Shown here piece by piece: positions 10,424 through 28,787 of a stretch of DNA of 30,099 nucleotides. Numbering within the stretch: the first letter of the stretch is position 1; the number at the start of each line of letters is the position of its first letter. The stretch comes from a virus. The notes beneath the pieces were generated by a model, which worked only from the letters and a program-made list of their open reading frames with translations, had not been told where the DNA came from and searched no databases. The stretch covers positions 1 through 30,099 of the IMG/VR virus record IMGVR_UViG_3300032278_000080; one strand, written 5' to 3'. A program made the position numbers and the translations under genes.

Positions 10424-11991
10424 TATGCTATTGCACCCCACTTCCTTAGAATCATGTCAGCCTTATCCGTATACTCGATTTTAGCGTTTTGGGTTTCATC
10501 CCATTTATATTTAGGAGTTTTTTTAAGATACATCCCTGCTTCATGATAAGACATAGGACGAATTGTCCCAGTGGCATCATCAGTCGAATGTAAAAACATT
10601 TCATTAAACATGTTGCGATCTCTACCATACATATCCACAGGCCGTTCCAAAAGAGCTTCTGCCTCTGCCTGATATGGGCCTACATAGTCACCAAGGTTGT
10701 TACCGTCATCCATAAGTTTTTGAAGATGCGGATACTGTTCGTAAGCCATTTTCCTGAACTTTGTTTCAAGTCCATCTATTGTTTCCAACCCAAGATTAAT
10801 TCGTTTCGCATACAGATTTCTTTGATCTGGGGTCAACGAAATCATATGAGTTCGAGCTTGATCCATAACGTCGTCAACTGCTGTCTGGTGTTTGCCAACA
10901 GCTTGATCCATAACAAATTCTTTATGGTCATAAAACATCTGTGCAATACGACCATCTTCTGCTGTCCAACCATGTCGTCTGATTTTGATTGCGATCTCTC
11001 TAAGAACCGGATGGTCTTCGGGCACGTCGAGGCCAAACGCTTGGGCCTGTATCCAAACATTGTGAAGAGTATTCTCGATCTCGCGATCCTGCTCCTCAGG
11101 AGTCATCACCGACCAATCAGCATCCCACGATGTGTAGGTTGCAAATCCGGGGGTTTTACGCATGAACTCTAAAGCACGATTAGGGTCAACCTTAAAATAA
11201 GATAAATAATTAACAACGTTCCAAGGTTCGTTAATCGGAGGGAACCCCTCTGGGATGTCTTCTGGTTGTATCAACCAGTCATCACCTTCGAAAAAGTCGA
11301 GTCCACCGATAAGATCTTGCAACGCACCCAAATCATACGGTTCGTCGTCTTCGTCTTCCCCATCTTTCTCGCCGTCTCCCGGTGGAATAGTTTTGGGAGT
11401 CCCGACAAGAGTAGCCGGATCATCCATAAATCCCGGTGTAGAGGCACCTTCCCGAATATCAGGCTGTGGTACAGCAGGTCCACGTTCAACATCTGGCCCC
11501 GGCATATCTTCTTCACCGGGTTGGGTAGTCGGATCAGGTATAAGTCGGTCATCAGGATGGAAACCAGATGAACCTAATATTTTATTACCCAGACCTGCTG
11601 CCGTAACATTACTTGACGTAGAACCAGATAAAACAGAACCCCTTAACCATTCCTCTTGCTGGGTCCCGGTTGGGTGGTCGGAAGCCGGGGCTGAATTTAA
11701 CCAATCTTCCAATTCAGATATAGTCTTATCAGACGCAACAGATCGCCACTCATCTTCAGAATAATTACTTCTTATCCATTCAGCAACGTATTGAAAATCA
11801 CCGATTGGTCCAAGATCTTTGATCTGTTCCATCGCTGCTTGGTTTTGCATGAAAATAGGGTCATCGGCCTCTGTACGTTCAAGGAAGATATTGTTCAGAA
11901 GACCAGTAGCATCCACATTTCGGGCATATTTGATAATTAGATCCAACAACCGTTTTGTCGCATTATAAATTTCTATAGTTCGAGTAGCCAT
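10423..11991 (-). CDS. Large probable internal/structural virion protein (522 aa)
   Basis: ATG 11991 shares a base with the stop of the 305-aa gene (TAATG). Residues about 1-130 are helical (TIEIYNATKRLLDLIIKYAR at the start). Residues about 145-215 form an acidic Pro/Gly/Asp-rich linker with PGEEDMPGPDVERGP and DGEKDGEDEDDEPYD. From about 235 onwards the protein is helical again and rich in Trp, Asp and His, including ALEFMRKTPGFATYTSWDADW, HNVWIQAQAFGL and DEYTDK-like charged ends. There is no recognisable catalytic signature. The two-domain layout with an acidic linker and its coupled place after the giant gene suggest a virion protein that works with it. Confidence 0.58.
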   Translation of the reverse strand: MATRTIEIYNATKRLLDLIIKYARNVDATGLLNNIFLERTEADDPIFMQNQAAMEQIKDLGPIGDFQYVAEWIRSNYSEDEWRSVASDKTISELEDWLNSAPASDHPTGTQQEEWLRGSVLSGSTSSNVTAAGLGNKILGSSGFHPDDRLIPDPTTQPGEEDMPGPDVERGPAVPQPDIREGASTPGFMDDPATLVGTPKTIPPGDGEKDGEDEDDEPYDLGALQDLIGGLDFFEGDDWLIQPEDIPEGFPPINEPWNVVNYLSYFKVDPNRALEFMRKTPGFATYTSWDADWSVMTPEEQDREIENTLHNVWIQAQAFGLDVPEDHPVLREIAIKIRRHGWTAEDGRIAQMFYDHKEFVMDQAVGKHQTAVDDVMDQARTHMISLTPDQRNLYAKRINLGLETIDGLETKFRKMAYEQYPHLQKLMDDGNNLGDYVGPYQAEAEALLERPVDMYGRDRNMFNEMFLHSTDDATGTIRPMSYHEAGMYLKKTPKYKWDETQNAKIEYTDKADMILRKWGAIA

Positions 11992-12910: not shown

Positions 12911-15900
12911 TTATACCTGTAAACTTTGGTCAGCAGCTAATTGCCTTATACTAGACGGCCAACTGTCTCGTGTAATAACATCGTCATTATCAAAATAGCG
13001 CAAAAACACTTCTTGGAAATCAGGTATCAAACCAAAGGTAAGTCGTAACGCTTCCCACCGCTCTTTCAAATCCTCGTTCTGGGAATGCGACAAGGTTTGC
13101 ATATCCGAATCTCCACTATGTTGAGATCGACTCAACATTTCTAATGCGATCGCATCTCGTTCATAAAGATACATAATGATGTGCGGCAACTCCGGTCGCC
13201 CTTGATGAGTTTCCAAATCTGATTCAACAAAATCTCGGAACTCATTGATAACACGAGCGGTCTGACCCATTGAAGAAACACTGTTGTATTCCTCCAACCA
13301 CATCGGATATCCCTCACCTATCACCCGAATTATTAGTTGTTTTTTGGCAAGATGATGCTGGTTGTAGTCGGCATTCAAACTGAACGGCAACCCAAGGCGT
13401 CTCTGAGTATCAAGCTCCTCATTGATCGGAGTCATATATGTAGAGAATCGATACCACCCCATATTTCCTTGTGCTCGTCGCAGAATTTCTGATGGTGTTT
13501 GATAGACACGGCGACCTTCTGCGATTTCTTTTCTGTAGACAGCCCGATTAAATTCGTATTGGACATCCAAAGTTCCAAGTTTGCCAAGCAAAAAATCTTG
13601 GATCTCGGGGTGGTTATCGATAAACTCTTTGTTGGCTTCATAAAGATGGTGGCCTTTTAATGTTGCAGCAGCGACTCCTTCGACACGAGTTTGCCGACCA
13701 AGTTGCCCCCAAAGATGCGGATAATGCCGTATCAAATGTTCATCTGCTGCTTCTAAACCGTATTCTTCTTTAATCCGTTGGTAATCGTTAATGGCTTCTT
13801 GATATGGTGACTGCACCAATGTGCTAAACGGAATTGCCAAGGCACTTATCAAACGAACTTGGAGATGCGCTTCTGCTCGCTTCGTTACCTCATCATCCCA
13901 TTCTTGTAATGCCTGTGGCGAATCCCATAGCTGATTGTTTAATGTCCATTCTGCTATAACATCGCCAGCGTGACGAGCAAAAACTCGTGCCCGTTCATCT
14001 GTGGAAAACAGTTGACTTCCCAGAACACTTGCTGCTCTTGGTAATGTCGAATCAATCAGTCGTGTCCAGGCTGAGTGTCCTTCGGCGATACCTCCAGGGA
14101 ATACTCGTGCCATTGTGATTTCTAGTTCTGGCATCGCAATACGAATTTCGGAAGCTAGGGCACCATATAGGGGACCGTAACCGGGCATACCTCCTGTGAT
14201 CATTGCCATAGATCCAAGATTGACTTGTATTTGGTGATCTTTCAATACACCCATCTTGCCTAAGTAACTGTGACCACCGAAAGCAGGTACCCAATCTGGT
14301 ATTTTTTCGTCAACGTCTAATCCAAAGATTTCACTCGGGATTCTAATGAGTGCTAGTTTTTCGGGGTTTCCGTTTTCGTCAAGCCAAAGTTTGGGTTCAC
14401 CCGTTTCTTCATCAATGAGGGGGTTGCCTTCTGCATCTGTTTGCACAATGAAACCATCACCGGGCCATATGTCTCCCTCTATGGCTTTACGGAAATTACG
14501 TGCAGCTTTGAGAACAAAGTCAGGATTCCTGACTGCGATACCTGCCCACCGAGTAATAACTTCTTGGTATGCGGCGAAGAACGGCATAATGTTTGCCATT
14601 ATTTCTTCGAATCGTGTCCGTTCAGCTAAATCATACAAAAGGTCTTTGGTGTGCTTTAACGCTATGCGCCGTGATTCGCCTTCGATAGCGTTAATCCGTT
14701 TGCTGTCAATAATGAAACCAGAATCGGGGCTACCTAACGCTTGTATTCTTTGTGCGACTTCACGTTGGTAAATGGTATTGAATACAACGCTTCGTGTAAG
14801 TGTGTCCGTCGGCAATGTGCCGATGTTTTGAAACATTTCGTCTATCCGACGTTTCACATTAACAACTAACCCATGCGTCCTAGCAGCATCAACAAAACTG
14901 CCGTCACCGATGACTTTGCCAATAGCGTTATAAGAACCCAACCCAGCTTCATATGCTTGCGTACGAAGCTTTTCCACGCTGCCACCGAAATGCTGATTAA
15001 TAATCGGTTGGATATCTCGAACCCAGTTTACTTCATCGCCCCTAGATGCCGCCCTTCGAACAAATCTGAATTCTGGAAGATTGGGAATCAACGAATCCGT
15101 TTCAAATCGGACTTGCGTAACCCAATCCCTAAGAGAATGTTCGTTCTGAGCGAACTGGGTAGGCATAATCGTTTTCAAATCTTGGCCTGGACCTTTTGTC
15201 AACCAACGAACAATGTCATCATCGGTAACATCGTCTAACCAAAACATACGAGTAAAATCTTGGTAAGGGTTACCTTCGACAGCAGCTACACCTGATTGTT
15301 CCCGCCACCATTTTGCGTCTGCCTTACGGTTAGCAAGATCATCGAGTGGATTATCGGGATACATCGTTGAGCGAGCGTATGCATCAGCATCTCCTAGCGG
15401 AATCCATTGCCTATTAATGGTGTCATTCCATGCATCAACAAAAGGTTTACCGTTGGTGTAGTCGTACTGTTGATGGCTAGTAGCTCTAATGTTTCTTCGT
15501 TGAGCTTGGCTTGTAGTGGACCAAAGAGCACGACTGTAACTATCGGCGGACATAGCATTTCGCCACATTTCTACGTCCTGTGGAACATTCCCGAATTCGT
15601 TTCCGATTCTTACCCCACTCATGTGGTAGTCGCTTACACCGGCATCAGACATAATTTTGCCGACCGTATCAAAGTTCTCTGCAAGATCGTCGTGCTCATA
15701 TACGGCCATTTCGTCGTAAACGTTTTCGATCTCGGCCTTTCTCTTTTTCTGAAGATCCTTCATTATCTGTCTTCGGCCACGTGGTTCCGTAAGCGCCCAT
15801 TGTTCTATGAGTTGGCTGCCTTGGGTTTCTAAAACTCTTTTAGCATCTCTCAGAGTTTGCATTTCTTTGATGGCACTGTCGTATTCAGGGGTTCCTTTAA

Positions 15901-18900
15901 CGAGTTTGCCTTTGAACCACCTATCAGTGCTTACGCTTCTGGCGATAAGACCTTCAATGTCGGCAATCCGGTTACGCATACGCCCTGTCGCCATATTCGA
16001 CAAGGTGTAACCCATAGTGTTCGCTGTTTCGATTTCGGCTAACCGTCGAAGCGACCGGCGAGAATGCAGAGCATGTATACCACCGGCTGCGGCCATCCCT
16101 ACTGGTCCAGCCACAAAAGCGCCTACTGCTGAAGCCCCCATCGCTCGACCCGCACTTCGACCCAACCCCGGAATACCCTTGTCCCTATAAGACTTGACAA
16201 TAACGCCTTTAACTAGTTTTTGTATTTTCGTATGATCGTCAGCGTACTTAGTCGCAATAGCCTCAACTAGCAGCGGATAATCGGCATTCCTGGCAGTAAG
16301 GTGACTGCCCGCTCCTTTGAATCCTGTGAAATCTAATCCCAGATCTTTCTTAAAGGCATCCATTACCAACGGGTTAAGATCAACACCACGTTGCTTATAC
16401 CAACCTGCTTGAAGATTTCCCCATCCATGAACAAACCCACGCAAAGCATGTAGAGCACCCAATTCGGCTGCGTTACGTGCAAGCTCATCTGTGATAACTC
16501 GCATCGGCCAAGCTGGACGCAACAGAACTGAACGCTTCCAAATACTTGTGAAAGCATTAGCTGTATAACCAACAGCATCTTTTATGCCCCTAGCTGCTAA
16601 TGCTGTTTTACTGAGATCAGTAAATGCATCACGATAGAGATCGTACCGAGGGACAAGATTTGATGTTGCCAGTTGTTGCGGTGTCAGATTTTCGAATTGT
16701 CGAACATTAATAATGCCGCCTTCCTCGGCTCGGGCAATCATCATTTGGCTGTTGCCGTAGATGCGTCCGTTGGACCCCATCTCCTGAAGTGTGCGTTCAG
16801 CACGCTTATGATTTCTGCGTAAAACTCTGGTCAGGTCATTAGGTGTGTAACTCGTTTTCCCATTGAAAAGAATTCTTCCGTGGAATAATGCTGGAAGATT
16901 ATTGTTCAGCTTTTCAACCGTTTCATGGAAAATTATTTGCTTCTCTTTTGTGGTCTTTGCAGCAGAGAATCGTGCCATAACGTCGTCAGGGTCTACACCC
17001 GCATACTCAGTTAGAGAAACAGTATCCTCACCATCTACTTCGGCTCTTTTGACCTTACCCCGTTTGGTTTTAGCCCAATCATTTGTAACTCGTGATGCGT
17101 CACGCATCATCCGATCCATTTGCTCGTATGCGTGCTGTACGTTGTCCCAATAAATAATTCCCTGTGGAACTTTTTCGTTAAACAGCCGCACAACTCGATT
17201 CGGGAACCACGGAGAATCTGCCGCATCTTGCCAGAACTCTTTCATCCAGACTTCACGTCTAGACATTTCTGGGATACTTCCGATAATACCCGGTTGGACC
17301 TTTTCCATGATTTCGTGAGCAGCAGCCATAACCAAAGCTGAATCTCTGTTAAGACCCTCCTCCATAGCATCTATTAACTCGTCACCCTTCTGGATAGAGA
17401 TATCTCGCCGTCGAGCCAAGGAACGTAACTTCAATTCTTCCATAGACAAAGCTGCCGCATACGGGAACCCGACATATTGGCCGTTCATAAGTTCACCGTA
17501 TATTTGGTTTTGCATCGCCATGAGTTCATCATCAGGGATTTCGTCTATAACAAGGCCACGACTTTGCTGGCGTCGCACGACTTCTCTTGTTGTAGCCAGT
17601 TCACTCGGTGTCATCTCTCTATAGAACCGACTCTGATCTCGCATAGCGATACGCATTTCGTCATCAGCAAGAACGGTGCCAGTAACAATATCTTCCCAAA
17701 CACTTGTATCGGTAATTGTCCAGCCGTGAGTTTTAGCCCAATCCTCAAATTGATCTAATGGCACGACTGTTATATCGCCACCGAGAGTGCCCAAAAATTC
17801 AGAAGAAGCATATTCCTCGAAATGTGCGTATTCAGAAAAAGCTTTAGGTGCTCCTGCTATCGGTTCACCGGCAGCAATAATCACATCTTTCTTTTTACTG
17901 TCAGCCCATTCTCTCACTTGGAAATTGCGACGAGTTATAAGTCCTGTTTCTGGGTCAAGGTACTGAACTTCTTTCCGTGGACGTTTGACATATCTACTAT
18001 CTTTAGGTCCCTGAACCCATTTACCCGTAACCATTGGGACACCGGTAAGGGGATCAAGATCTCTCCCAACAGTATGCGGACCACTCTGAAGTTCTTTACG
18101 ATAGTCAGCTACCTGTTCAGCCTTTTGGCTAATCGCTACATCAAGTTCAGCAAGATCCATTTGAGCTACCAAATGTGCTTGATCCGGCACTAAACCAGCC
18201 TCTACATGTTTTGCCGTTATCTTTGCAAGAATCCCGGCTCTTATCAACATTCGTGTTTGGTTAGCGTTATCTGTAAGTCCAGACGTTGCCACATTACGTT
18301 GGTAAACACCTTGATCAGTAATTTGTACTAATTCGTCAGCAATTGTTCCCTCTGACGATGTGAGCATCCAATCCCAGTCGGATTCAAATCCGATATATCC
18401 ATCCCACTGTTTAGCAAATTCCTTACTTGCTTTAGCTTTAGATAATTTGCTAGGGGTAAGGTCGTAGAGCAAGCCTTCGGGGGTTGATTCTGCAATTACT
18501 GCTGTGACTTCTCTACGATGGTTATTGATCCAACGTTTATCTTTAGTTGCAAGATTTTTCCAAGAAACCCGGTTTTCTATAAGATGTCGTATACGTTCAG
18601 GAACATCATTTATATCTCCTGTCTCTGACAAATCCTGCCAGAACCGATTCCTGAATTGCTCTGGTTTGACTGCCCGTGTCGATTCAACTTCGAGAATGAA
18701 ATCCATCCACCAAATATCGAATGGATCATCAGGTCCCATTTCAGATGTGAGCTTCCACCTGTTTGTAGCCCAATAAGGAAGATTCTTGTTCCCCTCGGCT
18801 GTTGGCGCATACATCGGAACTTTTCTTCCACGTATCGGAAGATTCAGACCAGTGTCGGTTCGACGTATCTCGTGAGCCTCTCCGAACTTTGCGAGAATTC

Positions 18901-21472
18901 TATTTCTCGCATCTATAGGAATCTTTGACCATTTGTCACCTATATACGTCGTGAGTGTCTTGTCGTTTCCAATAACCTCCCGCAATATTTTTCGACGTTG
19001 TGCGACGGTAAGGCTTCTTAGTTGCTGGTTTAATTCTTTAGGAGCAGTCGCACCTCCCCCCTTCGGATTGACAAGTCCTCGCGGAGTACCCATTTTCTTA
19101 AAGTCGGTTTGATTTGCACCTAAGAAATCCCAGTACTCCTCTAGTCCTTCGTGAGAAAGATAACGGAATTCAGGAGCATCGGGATGCATAAAAGCATCCG
19201 CCTTACGACGGTCATATACGACTGGAACATCGGGATCAAGTCCTTCTGCTTTGGGTCCCTGAATCGGATTTCCCTCACGATCTAGCGGCCAGCGATCACC
19301 GCTACCGGGGAATTTTCCCTCTACAAGTTCTGTACTCTGGAGTCTTTGTTGGGTGGGGGGTCCTATTTCCCTAACCGGTTTCCCATCGGGACCTAATATG
19401 TAAGATCCAGTTTCCCCAGCCCTGAAACCCGCTTGGTCAACCCCTTGCCTCGAACCGAACCCCATTTGGGGGCCACGTCCGTGACCTTTACCCCTCATAG
19501 ACCCACGAACGACTTGCTGAACAAATCCTTGATAAGTTACTTGCGACAAATCGTGAAGATTAATTGGTTTGCCATAACGTGCCGACCAATACAAGGCTCC
19601 GTCCATAGCATCAATAATTGCGGCTCGCCGATCTGCCGAAAGCCCATCAAATGCGGCTTGGGCTGAAGCCTTACTCGGTTGCCGCCCAACACCTAATCCA
19701 GTTACAAATGCTCTTTCTTCTCCAGCAAGTTGTTGCGCTTCACGATTTTTTCTTAACTGTTCAGTTGTTTCTTTCAGACCTTTACCGGTACGAGCAGTAA
19801 CTGTTCCCCCAGCTTCATTTCGTTGCTGATTCCGCATAGATTCCACGGAATGATCCATAGCTTTGTCTGTCTCTATTAGATCATTCCATCGTTCAACAAA
19901 TTCTGCTACACCAGTTTGGTCATCTGGGTGAACGCCAGCCCAATTCAATAATCCTTGTTGGTCTGCTTCTGGTAAGTCATCCCAAAGTTTGCGAATAAAA
20001 TGTCCTGTCGCACCACGAGTCGGTATCCACCGGTAGCCACCATTGCCCAACGGGTCGATCTCTTTCGCAGATTTCTTGTTGAACCAAAAACCTGTACGAG
20101 TAGCAGCATCACGAACTTGATCCTGAGCAAATATATCAAGACTACCGAATGTTTTATCATCCAGAACTACACCAAATGCTTCTGCCCAAAGTTCATCTAC
20201 TGATTGACCATGCCAATCAAACATCTGAATTTTGTTTGGATTCCTGACTTCTGCACCCGAGACAAGAGGACGACCGTCAGGACCATAAAGAATTTGATTT
20301 ACACCGGCACTATTTCTTAAAGCAATATCTCGTTGTATCGGGTCGAGAGGTAACCCATCGAGGCCAACAACTGGCATTCGTTGGGCAGGCTGATTGAGTT
20401 TATCTATTGTGTCTATCAGTCCTCCCTCAACTTTTTGATTCAGATATTCGTTTGCTTTCCCAATCATTTCGGGAAGAACTGTGGCATCACCTGCCCAGAG
20501 ACGTATCAGCATGTCAAATGCTTCGTCGTTATGAATAACGGAAGCTAATTGGCGTGCTTGGTAATGCTCCATATCTCTGACTTTGGCACCAAGTTTGCCC
20601 TCATTAGCATCCGTCAATATTTGGTAAGCTAACTGGGTGATAATTTCGGTGTCTCTTGTATTGGGTTCAAACCCTAAACCAGATTTGAATCTGTCAGAAG
20701 CTCCAGTAACGAATTCATCTAATTGGCCGATGTTTTGGATTTGAGTTTTCCAGCGAAGATATTTTCTGGACTGGACGCCACTTTGAGCTAAATAATCTGT
20801 AGAACGAACTGTCCGTTGCGCTATTTGCGACAACTTTCTGAGTTTGGCAGGAGCGACAAGGTTTGCCGGATCTAACCAAATGTTACCTATACCGTCAAGA
20901 AGACCACTCGTAAGGTTGAACCATGATGATCCTGAATAACGTTCTTCAACATTTGTTTGTGTCCAATCAGCCCCGGTAAAAGATAAAGCGAATGCTTGTC
21001 CAGCACTTCGCGAATTAGTGATATTCCATGCTTTCATCCAATCTGTCGGATCGACAAGCAAAGTCGGATCTTTCCAACTATTACCTGCAATAGTTAAAAA
21101 TGTTCCGACTGGTCTATCAACTGCGTATTCATAAACTCCGTCTAATAACTCGAAGGTGGGGGTGATGATGGTATTGCTAGCACTTCTGACCTCTTCGGGT
21201 ATCGACCCGAAAAACAACCCACCAAATCCGCCCCCATATTCTCCTGTTTCTTTATCGTGGGTATCTGGACCAAAAAGAGAGTTAACAACTCCCTGTTCCC
21301 CTAAAACGTTGTCTTTCCATGAACCCCAAATAGCATCTAAAAGGTTGTCCCCTTCGAATTCGTCGTCTATTCCAACGGCTTCTTGACCGATATCAATAAA
21401 AAACTCGGCAGATTTTTTGCCGGTGTGCCACAGGGCTTTGCCCATGCCCTCTATGCGGCCAACAAAACCCAT
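12911..21472 (-). CDS. Giant probable ejected/internal virion protein (2853 aa)
   Basis: One uninterrupted frame of 8.6 kb starts at ATG 21472 by a TAATG junction. The N-terminus (MGFVGRIEGMGKALWHTGKK) has no signal peptide. Residues about 390-420 and 690-760 contain turn-rich linkers (GPDGRPLVSG, GPDGKPVREIG, DREGNPIQG); 555-590 is a likely coiled coil. Around 1640-1680 is SIWKRSVLLRPAWPMRVITDELARNAA, a block I associate with giant virion proteins of environmental phages. Residues about 1777-1805 form a Gly/Ala-rich hydrophobic stretch (GASAVGAFVAGPVGMAAAGG) that could enter a membrane. Near 2310 is FEEIMANIMPFFAAYQEVITRWAG. The C-terminal 400 residues are helical. I found no lytic transglycosylase, peptidase, nuclease or RNA polymerase motif. 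Its place right after the portal block, and the absence of a tape measure, fit a DNA-ejection protein; that function is inferred. Confidence 0.62.
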   Translation of the reverse strand: MGFVGRIEGMGKALWHTGKKSAEFFIDIGQEAVGIDDEFEGDNLLDAIWGSWKDNVLGEQGVVNSLFGPDTHDKETGEYGGGFGGLFFGSIPEEVRSASNTIITPTFELLDGVYEYAVDRPVGTFLTIAGNSWKDPTLLVDPTDWMKAWNITNSRSAGQAFALSFTGADWTQTNVEERYSGSSWFNLTSGLLDGIGNIWLDPANLVAPAKLRKLSQIAQRTVRSTDYLAQSGVQSRKYLRWKTQIQNIGQLDEFVTGASDRFKSGLGFEPNTRDTEIITQLAYQILTDANEGKLGAKVRDMEHYQARQLASVIHNDEAFDMLIRLWAGDATVLPEMIGKANEYLNQKVEGGLIDTIDKLNQPAQRMPVVGLDGLPLDPIQRDIALRNSAGVNQILYGPDGRPLVSGAEVRNPNKIQMFDWHGQSVDELWAEAFGVVLDDKTFGSLDIFAQDQVRDAATRTGFWFNKKSAKEIDPLGNGGYRWIPTRGATGHFIRKLWDDLPEADQQGLLNWAGVHPDDQTGVAEFVERWNDLIETDKAMDHSVESMRNQQRNEAGGTVTARTGKGLKETTEQLRKNREAQQLAGEERAFVTGLGVGRQPSKASAQAAFDGLSADRRAAIIDAMDGALYWSARYGKPINLHDLSQVTYQGFVQQVVRGSMRGKGHGRGPQMGFGSRQGVDQAGFRAGETGSYILGPDGKPVREIGPPTQQRLQSTELVEGKFPGSGDRWPLDREGNPIQGPKAEGLDPDVPVVYDRRKADAFMHPDAPEFRYLSHEGLEEYWDFLGANQTDFKKMGTPRGLVNPKGGGATAPKELNQQLRSLTVAQRRKILREVIGNDKTLTTYIGDKWSKIPIDARNRILAKFGEAHEIRRTDTGLNLPIRGRKVPMYAPTAEGNKNLPYWATNRWKLTSEMGPDDPFDIWWMDFILEVESTRAVKPEQFRNRFWQDLSETGDINDVPERIRHLIENRVSWKNLATKDKRWINNHRREVTAVIAESTPEGLLYDLTPSKLSKAKASKEFAKQWDGYIGFESDWDWMLTSSEGTIADELVQITDQGVYQRNVATSGLTDNANQTRMLIRAGILAKITAKHVEAGLVPDQAHLVAQMDLAELDVAISQKAEQVADYRKELQSGPHTVGRDLDPLTGVPMVTGKWVQGPKDSRYVKRPRKEVQYLDPETGLITRRNFQVREWADSKKKDVIIAAGEPIAGAPKAFSEYAHFEEYASSEFLGTLGGDITVVPLDQFEDWAKTHGWTITDTSVWEDIVTGTVLADDEMRIAMRDQSRFYREMTPSELATTREVVRRQQSRGLVIDEIPDDELMAMQNQIYGELMNGQYVGFPYAAALSMEELKLRSLARRRDISIQKGDELIDAMEEGLNRDSALVMAAAHEIMEKVQPGIIGSIPEMSRREVWMKEFWQDAADSPWFPNRVVRLFNEKVPQGIIYWDNVQHAYEQMDRMMRDASRVTNDWAKTKRGKVKRAEVDGEDTVSLTEYAGVDPDDVMARFSAAKTTKEKQIIFHETVEKLNNNLPALFHGRILFNGKTSYTPNDLTRVLRRNHKRAERTLQEMGSNGRIYGNSQMMIARAEEGGIINVRQFENLTPQQLATSNLVPRYDLYRDAFTDLSKTALAARGIKDAVGYTANAFTSIWKRSVLLRPAWPMRVITDELARNAAELGALHALRGFVHGWGNLQAGWYKQRGVDLNPLVMDAFKKDLGLDFTGFKGAGSHLTARNADYPLLVEAIATKYADDHTKIQKLVKGVIVKSYRDKGIPGLGRSAGRAMGASAVGAFVAGPVGMAAAGGIHALHSRRSLRRLAEIETANTMGYTLSNMATGRMRNRIADIEGLIARSVSTDRWFKGKLVKGTPEYDSAIKEMQTLRDAKRVLETQGSQLIEQWALTEPRGRRQIMKDLQKKRKAEIENVYDEMAVYEHDDLAENFDTVGKIMSDAGVSDYHMSGVRIGNEFGNVPQDVEMWRNAMSADSYSRALWSTTSQAQRRNIRATSHQQYDYTNGKPFVDAWNDTINRQWIPLGDADAYARSTMYPDNPLDDLANRKADAKWWREQSGVAAVEGNPYQDFTRMFWLDDVTDDDIVRWLTKGPGQDLKTIMPTQFAQNEHSLRDWVTQVRFETDSLIPNLPEFRFVRRAASRGDEVNWVRDIQPIINQHFGGSVEKLRTQAYEAGLGSYNAIGKVIGDGSFVDAARTHGLVVNVKRRIDEMFQNIGTLPTDTLTRSVVFNTIYQREVAQRIQALGSPDSGFIIDSKRINAIEGESRRIALKHTKDLLYDLAERTRFEEIMANIMPFFAAYQEVITRWAGIAVRNPDFVLKAARNFRKAIEGDIWPGDGFIVQTDAEGNPLIDEETGEPKLWLDENGNPEKLALIRIPSEIFGLDVDEKIPDWVPAFGGHSYLGKMGVLKDHQIQVNLGSMAMITGGMPGYGPLYGALASEIRIAMPELEITMARVFPGGIAEGHSAWTRLIDSTLPRAASVLGSQLFSTDERARVFARHAGDVIAEWTLNNQLWDSPQALQEWDDEVTKRAEAHLQVRLISALAIPFSTLVQSPYQEAINDYQRIKEEYGLEAADEHLIRHYPHLWGQLGRQTRVEGVAAATLKGHHLYEANKEFIDNHPEIQDFLLGKLGTLDVQYEFNRAVYRKEIAEGRRVYQTPSEILRRAQGNMGWYRFSTYMTPINEELDTQRRLGLPFSLNADYNQHHLAKKQLIIRVIGEGYPMWLEEYNSVSSMGQTARVINEFRDFVESDLETHQGRPELPHIIMYLYERDAIALEMLSRSQHSGDSDMQTLSHSQNEDLKERWEALRLTFGLIPDFQEVFLRYFDNDDVITRDSWPSSIRQLAADQSLQV

Positions 21473-28448: not shown

Positions 28449-28697
28449 ATGTACTCCACTATCATCCGCGAGGTTCCCGATCTCGGGTACATCGCGTTCC
28501 GTGTGCTTACGAACGGCGACAAGCGTACCTTGCTGCTGAATCGTAGCGTTTACTACGTGAAGCCACACGTCACAGGTAACGTTTGGGTTACGACCGGCAA
28601 GGTCATCAAGCCCACAGCCCGTAAGCACACCATCCTTGCAGCGTTTCAGTCACGCATCGCTGCCGAGGTAACACCCGCACAGGCTCGCAAGGCCTAG
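28449..28697 (+). CDS. Hypothetical protein (82 aa), first rightward gene
   Basis: The frame extends back to 28341, but ATG 28449 has GAAAGG about ten bases upstream and gives a sensible start (MYSTIIREVPDLGYIAFRVL). The product is small and basic with alternating strands (GDKRTLLLNRSVYYVKPHV, NVWVTTGKVIKPTARKHT) and a C-terminal helix (ILAAFQSRIAAEVTPAQARK). This looks like a small beta-barrel plus helix, but no family is recognised. It is followed by the tRNA-like fold and further small genes, all with strong ribosome sites, which suggests an early-expressed module. Confidence 0.62.
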   Translation: MYSTIIREVPDLGYIAFRVLTNGDKRTLLLNRSVYYVKPHVTGNVWVTTGKVIKPTARKHTILAAFQSRIAAEVTPAQARKA

Positions 28698-28706
28698 TAG
28701 CTGGTA

Positions 28707-28745
28707 GCCCTGAACGGTTCATCCGGGTTCGATTCCCGGCAGGGC
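28707..28745 (+). ncRNA. Truncated tRNA-like fold (acceptor stem plus T-arm)
   Basis: A standard T-arm is present: CCGGG (28723-28727), loop TTCGATT (28728-28734), CCCGG (28735-28739). CAGGGC (28740-28745) follows in the place of the 3' acceptor strand and pairs with GCCCTG (28707-28712) only ten bases before the T-arm. In that gap, TGAACGGTTCA (28711-28721) can form a tiny hairpin if the last two acceptor pairs open. A full tRNA is not possible: no matching 5' acceptor strand, D-arm or anticodon arm exists at the normal distance, although TAGCTGGTAG just upstream recalls a D-arm. It may be a decayed tRNA, a 3'-tRNA-derived attachment site, or an RNA-processing signal. Confidence 0.5.
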
Positions 28746-28787
28746 ACGGTACGACAACCGTCATACCAAACGAAAGGGAGCTTCATC

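Follow-up and report, generated by a model that had tools for sequence, protein, structure and literature searches.

Polycistronic mRNAs of T7-type phages carry RNase III sites, which act as processing signals between genes, and in eukaryotes the small tRNA-like mascRNA and menRNA, in which the arms are reduced, arise when RNase P and RNase Z process a longer transcript. tRNA-like folds at gene borders have been described as t-elements in plant mitochondria and, upstream of the 5S rRNA, in Haloferax; they sit at the ends of mRNAs or rRNAs and are cleaved by RNase P, RNase Z or both (PMC11658184, PMC4326828). In plant mitochondria, t-elements set mRNA ends via both enzymes (PMC11658184), and a t-element of Haloferax can serve as a means of excising an RNA (PMC4326828). 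In vitro, bacterial RNase P efficiently processes hairpins composed of an acceptor stem, a T-stem and a T-loop, and host RNase P is known to cut phage transcripts, namely the M3 RNA and the C4 antisense RNA (P1/P7) (PMC11143913).

The locus analysed here is a 39-base tRNA acceptor-half fold located at positions 28707-28745 (+), between two small phage genes of the window, by which we mean the whole stretch of 30,099 nucleotides of viral DNA. Like t-elements, it is a tRNA-like fold at a gene border. However, t-elements occur in small numbers in a genome and, by prediction, adopt the typical fold of tRNA-like RNAs, whereas the phage elements are far smaller, lack the anticodon arm and recur, in Gordonia phage VanLee, in nearly every gap of one operon. 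The RNase P model hairpins share with them the acceptor stem stacked on the T-stem with its T-loop, but these hairpins are synthetic whereas the phage elements are natural and carry a D-loop-like GG linker and an ACG trailer. The M3 and C4 RNAs are single small RNAs and not repeated operon punctuation, the mascRNA/menRNA family (RF01684) is found at the 3' ends of eukaryotic lncRNAs whereas the phage elements lie between protein-coding genes, and the RNase III sites of T7-type phages have a similar role with a different enzyme and fold. On the analysis presented below, we put at roughly 70% the probability that the phage element is a minimal tRNA mimic serving as a substrate of RNase P, and probably of RNase Z, that punctuates polycistronic phage mRNA.

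The features of the locus are collected in Table 1. The element combines a 6-bp acceptor stem with a T-arm, giving 11 bp, and has neither D-stem nor anticodon arm. The first-pass annotation had reported both arms missing, as was found, the linker being just 10 nt long; the mini-hairpin that it placed there, GAA-CGG-TTC, is present, but a miniature D-loop or D-arm, which would offer its GG to the T-loop, is the better interpretation. Acceptor stem and T-arm constitute both the MFE and the centroid fold of the element. Its folding energy is unremarkable (z=-1.25; 23 of 200 shuffled sequences were equally good); as single-sequence folding could therefore not prove the element, energy was rejected as evidence, and it was the comparison with relatives, through the match to covariance model R1, that decided that the element is real. 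When Rfam was searched with the window, the best family was mascRNA (RF01684), with a score of 22.8 against a gathering cut-off of 42.5, and no family reached its cut-off. The RF01684 scores in VanLee (26.8) and Cafasso (25.4) were also under that value.

Table 1. Coordinates of the half-tRNA element and of its surroundings in the window
Feature	Position	Strand	Basis or remark
Acceptor stem, 5' strand, GCCCTG	28707..28712	+	sequence, fold, R1 match
Linker AACGGTTCAT, 10 nt, miniature D-loop; GG at 28716-28717	28713..28722	+	sequence
T-arm, CCGGG-TTCGATT-CCCGG	28723..28739	+	sequence, fold
Acceptor stem, 3' strand, CAGGGC	28740..28745	+	sequence, fold
A73-like base and conserved ACG trailer	28746..28748	+	ACG ranks first among the family trailers
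Second hairpin, ACGGT-ACGACA-ACCGT, directly 3' of the element	28746..28761	+	score 7.7, weak in the window
Shine-Dalgarno-like AAAGGGAG	28773..28780	+	sequence
Upstream small ORF, 82 aa, no family	28449..28697	+	stop TAG 28695-28697, 9 nt before the element
Downstream ORF, 45 codons	28788..28925	+	start codon 42 nt past the element

When the window region was compared with 50,697 phage records in a sensitive DNA search, actinophages that are otherwise unlike it (Predator, Cuke, Fowlmouth, MrMiyagi and VanLee) gave short matches coinciding with the element, and the fold was preserved in the matched sequences though both sides of the stems differed. A scan free of stem sequence, which looked for an acceptor stem, a linker and a T-arm, found 13 elements in VanLee, 5 in Cuke and, in ten Markov simulations of each genome, none. 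Sixteen elements, all from phages other than that of the window, were used to build the covariance model R1, which matched the window at 28705-28749 with 52.4 bits (E=9e-12). A covariance-model search for T-arm/acceptor minihelices was a check that the first-pass annotation had proposed. Its reading of a T-arm with a TTCGATT loop, followed by an acceptor strand pairing to GCCCTG, was upheld by this match as well as by the predicted folds.

R1 detected 17 copies in VanLee, 10 each in Cuke, Fowlmouth and Cafasso, 7 each in Predator and Konstantine and 4 in LittleE. Streptomyces phages Joe and Octobien14 carry 5 and 3 copies; prophiBWHA-1, Arthrobacter phage MrSmee and Rhodococcus phage REQ1 carry one each, and three IMG/VR contigs carry 12, 10 and 9. 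Some copies thus lie in Omega-like, Streptomyces and Arthrobacter phages. As a negative control, six whole actinobacterial genomes gave 2 weak matches. Regarding the Mycobacteriaceae, 6 of 151 genomes were matched at E<=1e-5; two of these loci, L339 and L342, the latter with two elements, are consistent with prophages, and the ORFs beside the L339 element resemble what we take to be phage packaging and capsid genes.

A first scan of viral contigs for GCCCTG followed by a T-arm showed, among the loci inspected, the full fold at the window copy only. The pattern GAACGGTT with variable spacing returned many real tRNAs among its matches and exposed the class with 10-12 nt linkers, and a fixed pattern applied to genome contigs mostly hit tRNA-like variable arms or other DNA, with one clear minihelix (L308). 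Viral contigs L252, L259, L260, L151 and L132 contain short acceptor/T-arm folds that resemble the elements and have linkers 10-28 nt long, and other phage groups may have their own versions of this fold.

The location of the elements is regular. In VanLee, each of the 17 elements falls into a gap whose flanking genes run in one direction, and gaps of 45 nt or more account for 6.4% of this genome. The elements occupy 17 of the 19 leftward gaps and none of the 16 rightward ones. Over the 94 elements examined, the upstream stop codon lies at a median of 9 nt (4-13 nt in 62 of the 87 elements with a recognisable stop) and the next start codon with a ribosome-binding site at a median of 44 nt downstream; each gap holds a single copy, on the gene strand. 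The number of copies, up to 17 per genome, would provide dosage for an excised, stable mini-tRNA of about 40 nt, maybe with CCA, acting as a decoy or sponge for host factors that bind tRNA (the CCA enzyme, tRNA-targeting toxins or defence nucleases), and such a decoy would fit the canonical T-loop and GG linker retained in nearly all copies. We nevertheless regard this explanation as rather unlikely, as the single copy per gap, the fixed distances to stop and start and the constant strand are what is expected of a cis signal, and the element has no anticodon to lure anticodon nucleases.

Family elements measure about 39-50 nt, lack an anticodon arm and are mostly without a D-stem. A canonical tRNA gene was rejected, as the linker of 5-22 nt (mostly 10-12 nt) leaves no anticodon arm and ARAGORN found no tRNA in the window. 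An extra closing pair beside the T-stem, present in 77 of 90 elements, brings the stack to 6+6 = 12 bp or nearly so, which is the length of acceptor plus T-stem in tRNA; the window element and some others have 11 bp. The 5-bp T-arm bears a canonical TTCRANN loop that is near-invariant in the family. GG was found in the linker of 90 of 90 elements, compared to a mean of 52 and a maximum of 63 for shuffled linkers, a count to be read with the fact that GG was demanded by the scan that seeded the model, so that the model favours it. Open linker loops in relatives include AACGGTT, ATGGTT, ATGGTCG and CTGGCAGAC, and alternative linkers form real hairpins of 3-4 bp with a TGGT or CGGT loop (CTC-TGGT-GAG, CCC-TGGT-GGG and CTC-CGGT-GAG). 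In tRNA, G18 and G19 of the D-loop dock on the T-loop, and the linker GG may dock in the same manner. Linkers such as GACTGGCAGACAC and GATGGTCGAAGG look like the D-loops of tRNAs, with no single parent tRNA evident.

The trailer is mostly ACG, with CCA in a few elements only; the tRNA-Lys gene of phage Cuke, which is CCA-less, likewise ends in A-CGG. Within a few bases 3' of the element, a second hairpin with a score of at least 8 occurs in 64 of 90 cases, against a mean of 2.2 and a maximum of 5 in shuffled sequences. On one IMG/VR contig (L327, 17.3 kb, 10 elements), several of these second hairpins are near-identical, GATTGACAC...GTGTCAATC, as if they were a conserved signal. A stable stack of 11-12 bp with a hairpin right behind it in most copies could also serve uncut, as an intercistronic stabiliser or insulator protecting against 3' exonucleases or ribosome read-on. 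This is an unlikely explanation, given that ordinary hairpins would suffice for such a function, which would need neither the near-invariant T-loop, nor the GG linker, nor the tRNA-like trailer.

Base pairs are formed in 99.2% of the pair cells of 93 aligned elements; this percentage is partly by construction, since the model that collected the rows rewards pairing, but the placement of the elements is not. The alignment contains 354 double-change cells, compared to 94 +/- 8 in shuffled alignments and 48-74 when it is slid by 1-3 columns, and each pair position of the acceptor shows several pair types. In four phages, the acceptor and linker are constant (GCGCC aacggtttt) while the T-stems are exchanged as matched pairs: GATGG/CCATC, AGAGG/CCTCT, TGAGG/CCTCA and AGTGG/CCACT. 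The element looks like the 3' half of a tRNA, and the first-pass annotation had considered two tRNA-derived origins: a remnant left by deletion within a tRNA, and an attP-like copy of the 3' end of a host tRNA. Both origins are now very improbable. Compensatory changes keep the pairing in more than 90 copies that are fixed in position and orientation, and a single genome holds many copies, up to 17, that differ in sequence and sit in operon gaps. Moreover, the 22-nt T-arm/acceptor half is absent, allowing at most one mismatch, from all 396 actinobacterial-phylum genomes searched, which are a sample. That these GC-rich hairpins between genes are part of an intrinsic transcription terminator has a negligible probability, because none of the 90 elements is followed by a TTTT run within 45 nt and the scan of the window detected no terminator at the element.

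Taken together, the fixed place and strand, the single copy per gap, the tRNA-specific features and the absence of a terminator point to a cis signal for tRNA enzymes. Among the three options of the first-pass annotation, the best-supported by our analysis is its third, a functional RNA that would recruit such enzymes. In the proposed mechanism, the acceptor stem would stack coaxially on the T-arm (11-12 bp) and the D-loop-like GG of the linker would dock on the T-loop. Host RNase P would then cut on the 5' side, just past the upstream stop codon (28706/28707 in the window), and RNase Z would, less surely, cut on the 3' side, just past the A adjoining the acceptor (28746 in the window). The polycistronic mRNA would thereby be split, and the downstream piece would open with a hairpin followed by the ribosome-binding site, with possible effects on mRNA stability or translation. 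It should be noted that RNase P model hairpin substrates usually carry a 3' RCCA. Several findings stand against this reading: the trailer is mostly ACG, whereas it is RCC(A) that base-pairs to the RNA of bacterial RNase P; some elements reach 11 bp only; and, as described below, the window phage has a single copy and its capsid relatives have none.

Extended to actinobacterial phages at large, the class of half-tRNAs of about 40 nt could represent a general intercistronic punctuation code, an extension to which we give slightly better than even odds. The order stop codon, half-tRNA, hairpin and ribosome-binding site would be repeated gene after gene, and host RNase P and RNase Z would split one transcript into many mRNAs, each beginning with a hairpin. 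Such a code would be the counterpart, in bacterial viruses, of mitochondrial tRNA punctuation, without real tRNAs.

Regarding the window phage itself, it has only one copy of the element. By capsid and terminase, its closest long relatives form a marine phage group, and R1 gave no match in 40 marine viral contigs related by capsid. None of eight long relatives has homologues of the right-end genes of the window, and a search of viral contigs found no homologues of the ORFs flanking the element. Since the closest long relatives lack both the element and its neighbouring genes, the element lies in a variable module of this lineage. Elsewhere in the window, positions 12911-21472 (-) form a single ORF of 2853 codons, whose sole match, to a PHROG without assigned function, is weak; in a marine group of viral contigs it shows 26-35% identity over the aligned part, whereas capsid and terminase show 72-86%.

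No description of a repeated half-tRNA in phage operons was found in Rfam, in the annotations consulted or in the open-licence papers covered by our searches, an earlier description elsewhere being possible, and the VanLee genome paper mentions one tRNA only. The family is thus apparently undescribed so far, and its members, which would work like t-elements or tRNA punctuation, have a fair chance of deserving a class of their own. If cut as predicted, they would rank with the smallest tRNA-like processing signals in nature, would mean that many phages hand mRNA maturation to RNase P, and would account for many of the gaps of about 100 nt in the small-gene operons of actinophages. Possible uses are as minimal RNase P/RNase Z substrates and as a compact punctuation part for polycistronic expression, and the idea can be tested in ordinary M. 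smegmatis phages.

The elements also help to correct gene starts and spurious tRNA calls. In Cuke (L321:12429-12762 and 16043-16093), genes 43, 44 and 52 have been annotated with starts that extend into an element or beyond it, and the real starts are probably about 45 nt downstream of each element. In Streptomyces phage Endor2 (L469:347-429), the annotated tRNA-Arg covers an element and the end of the preceding gene, and is probably a spurious annotation caused by the half-tRNA. In the VanLee, Cuke, Cafasso and Predator stretches, ARAGORN overlapped one element, with a doubtful tRNA-Val in VanLee (L319:45226-45316). After the elements of LittleE (L448, L454 and L458) and prophiBWHA-1 (L450), G-rich words recur about every five bases in intergenic, low-complexity sequence (GGCAA, GGCGA and GGCTA).

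Finally, an unannotated tRNA-like fold was observed in the gap between genes 3.5 and 4 of T7-like Klebsiella phages, as in K11 (L123:2975-3045, about 10970-11040 of the record), a position which we take to be near a T7 RNase III site. The same device may have arisen here independently. The fold has a 6-bp acceptor, a 6-bp T-stem, a TTCGATT loop and a linker of about 35 nt with one or two hairpins, and it recurs in about 145 related records, in which diverged copies retain the stems.
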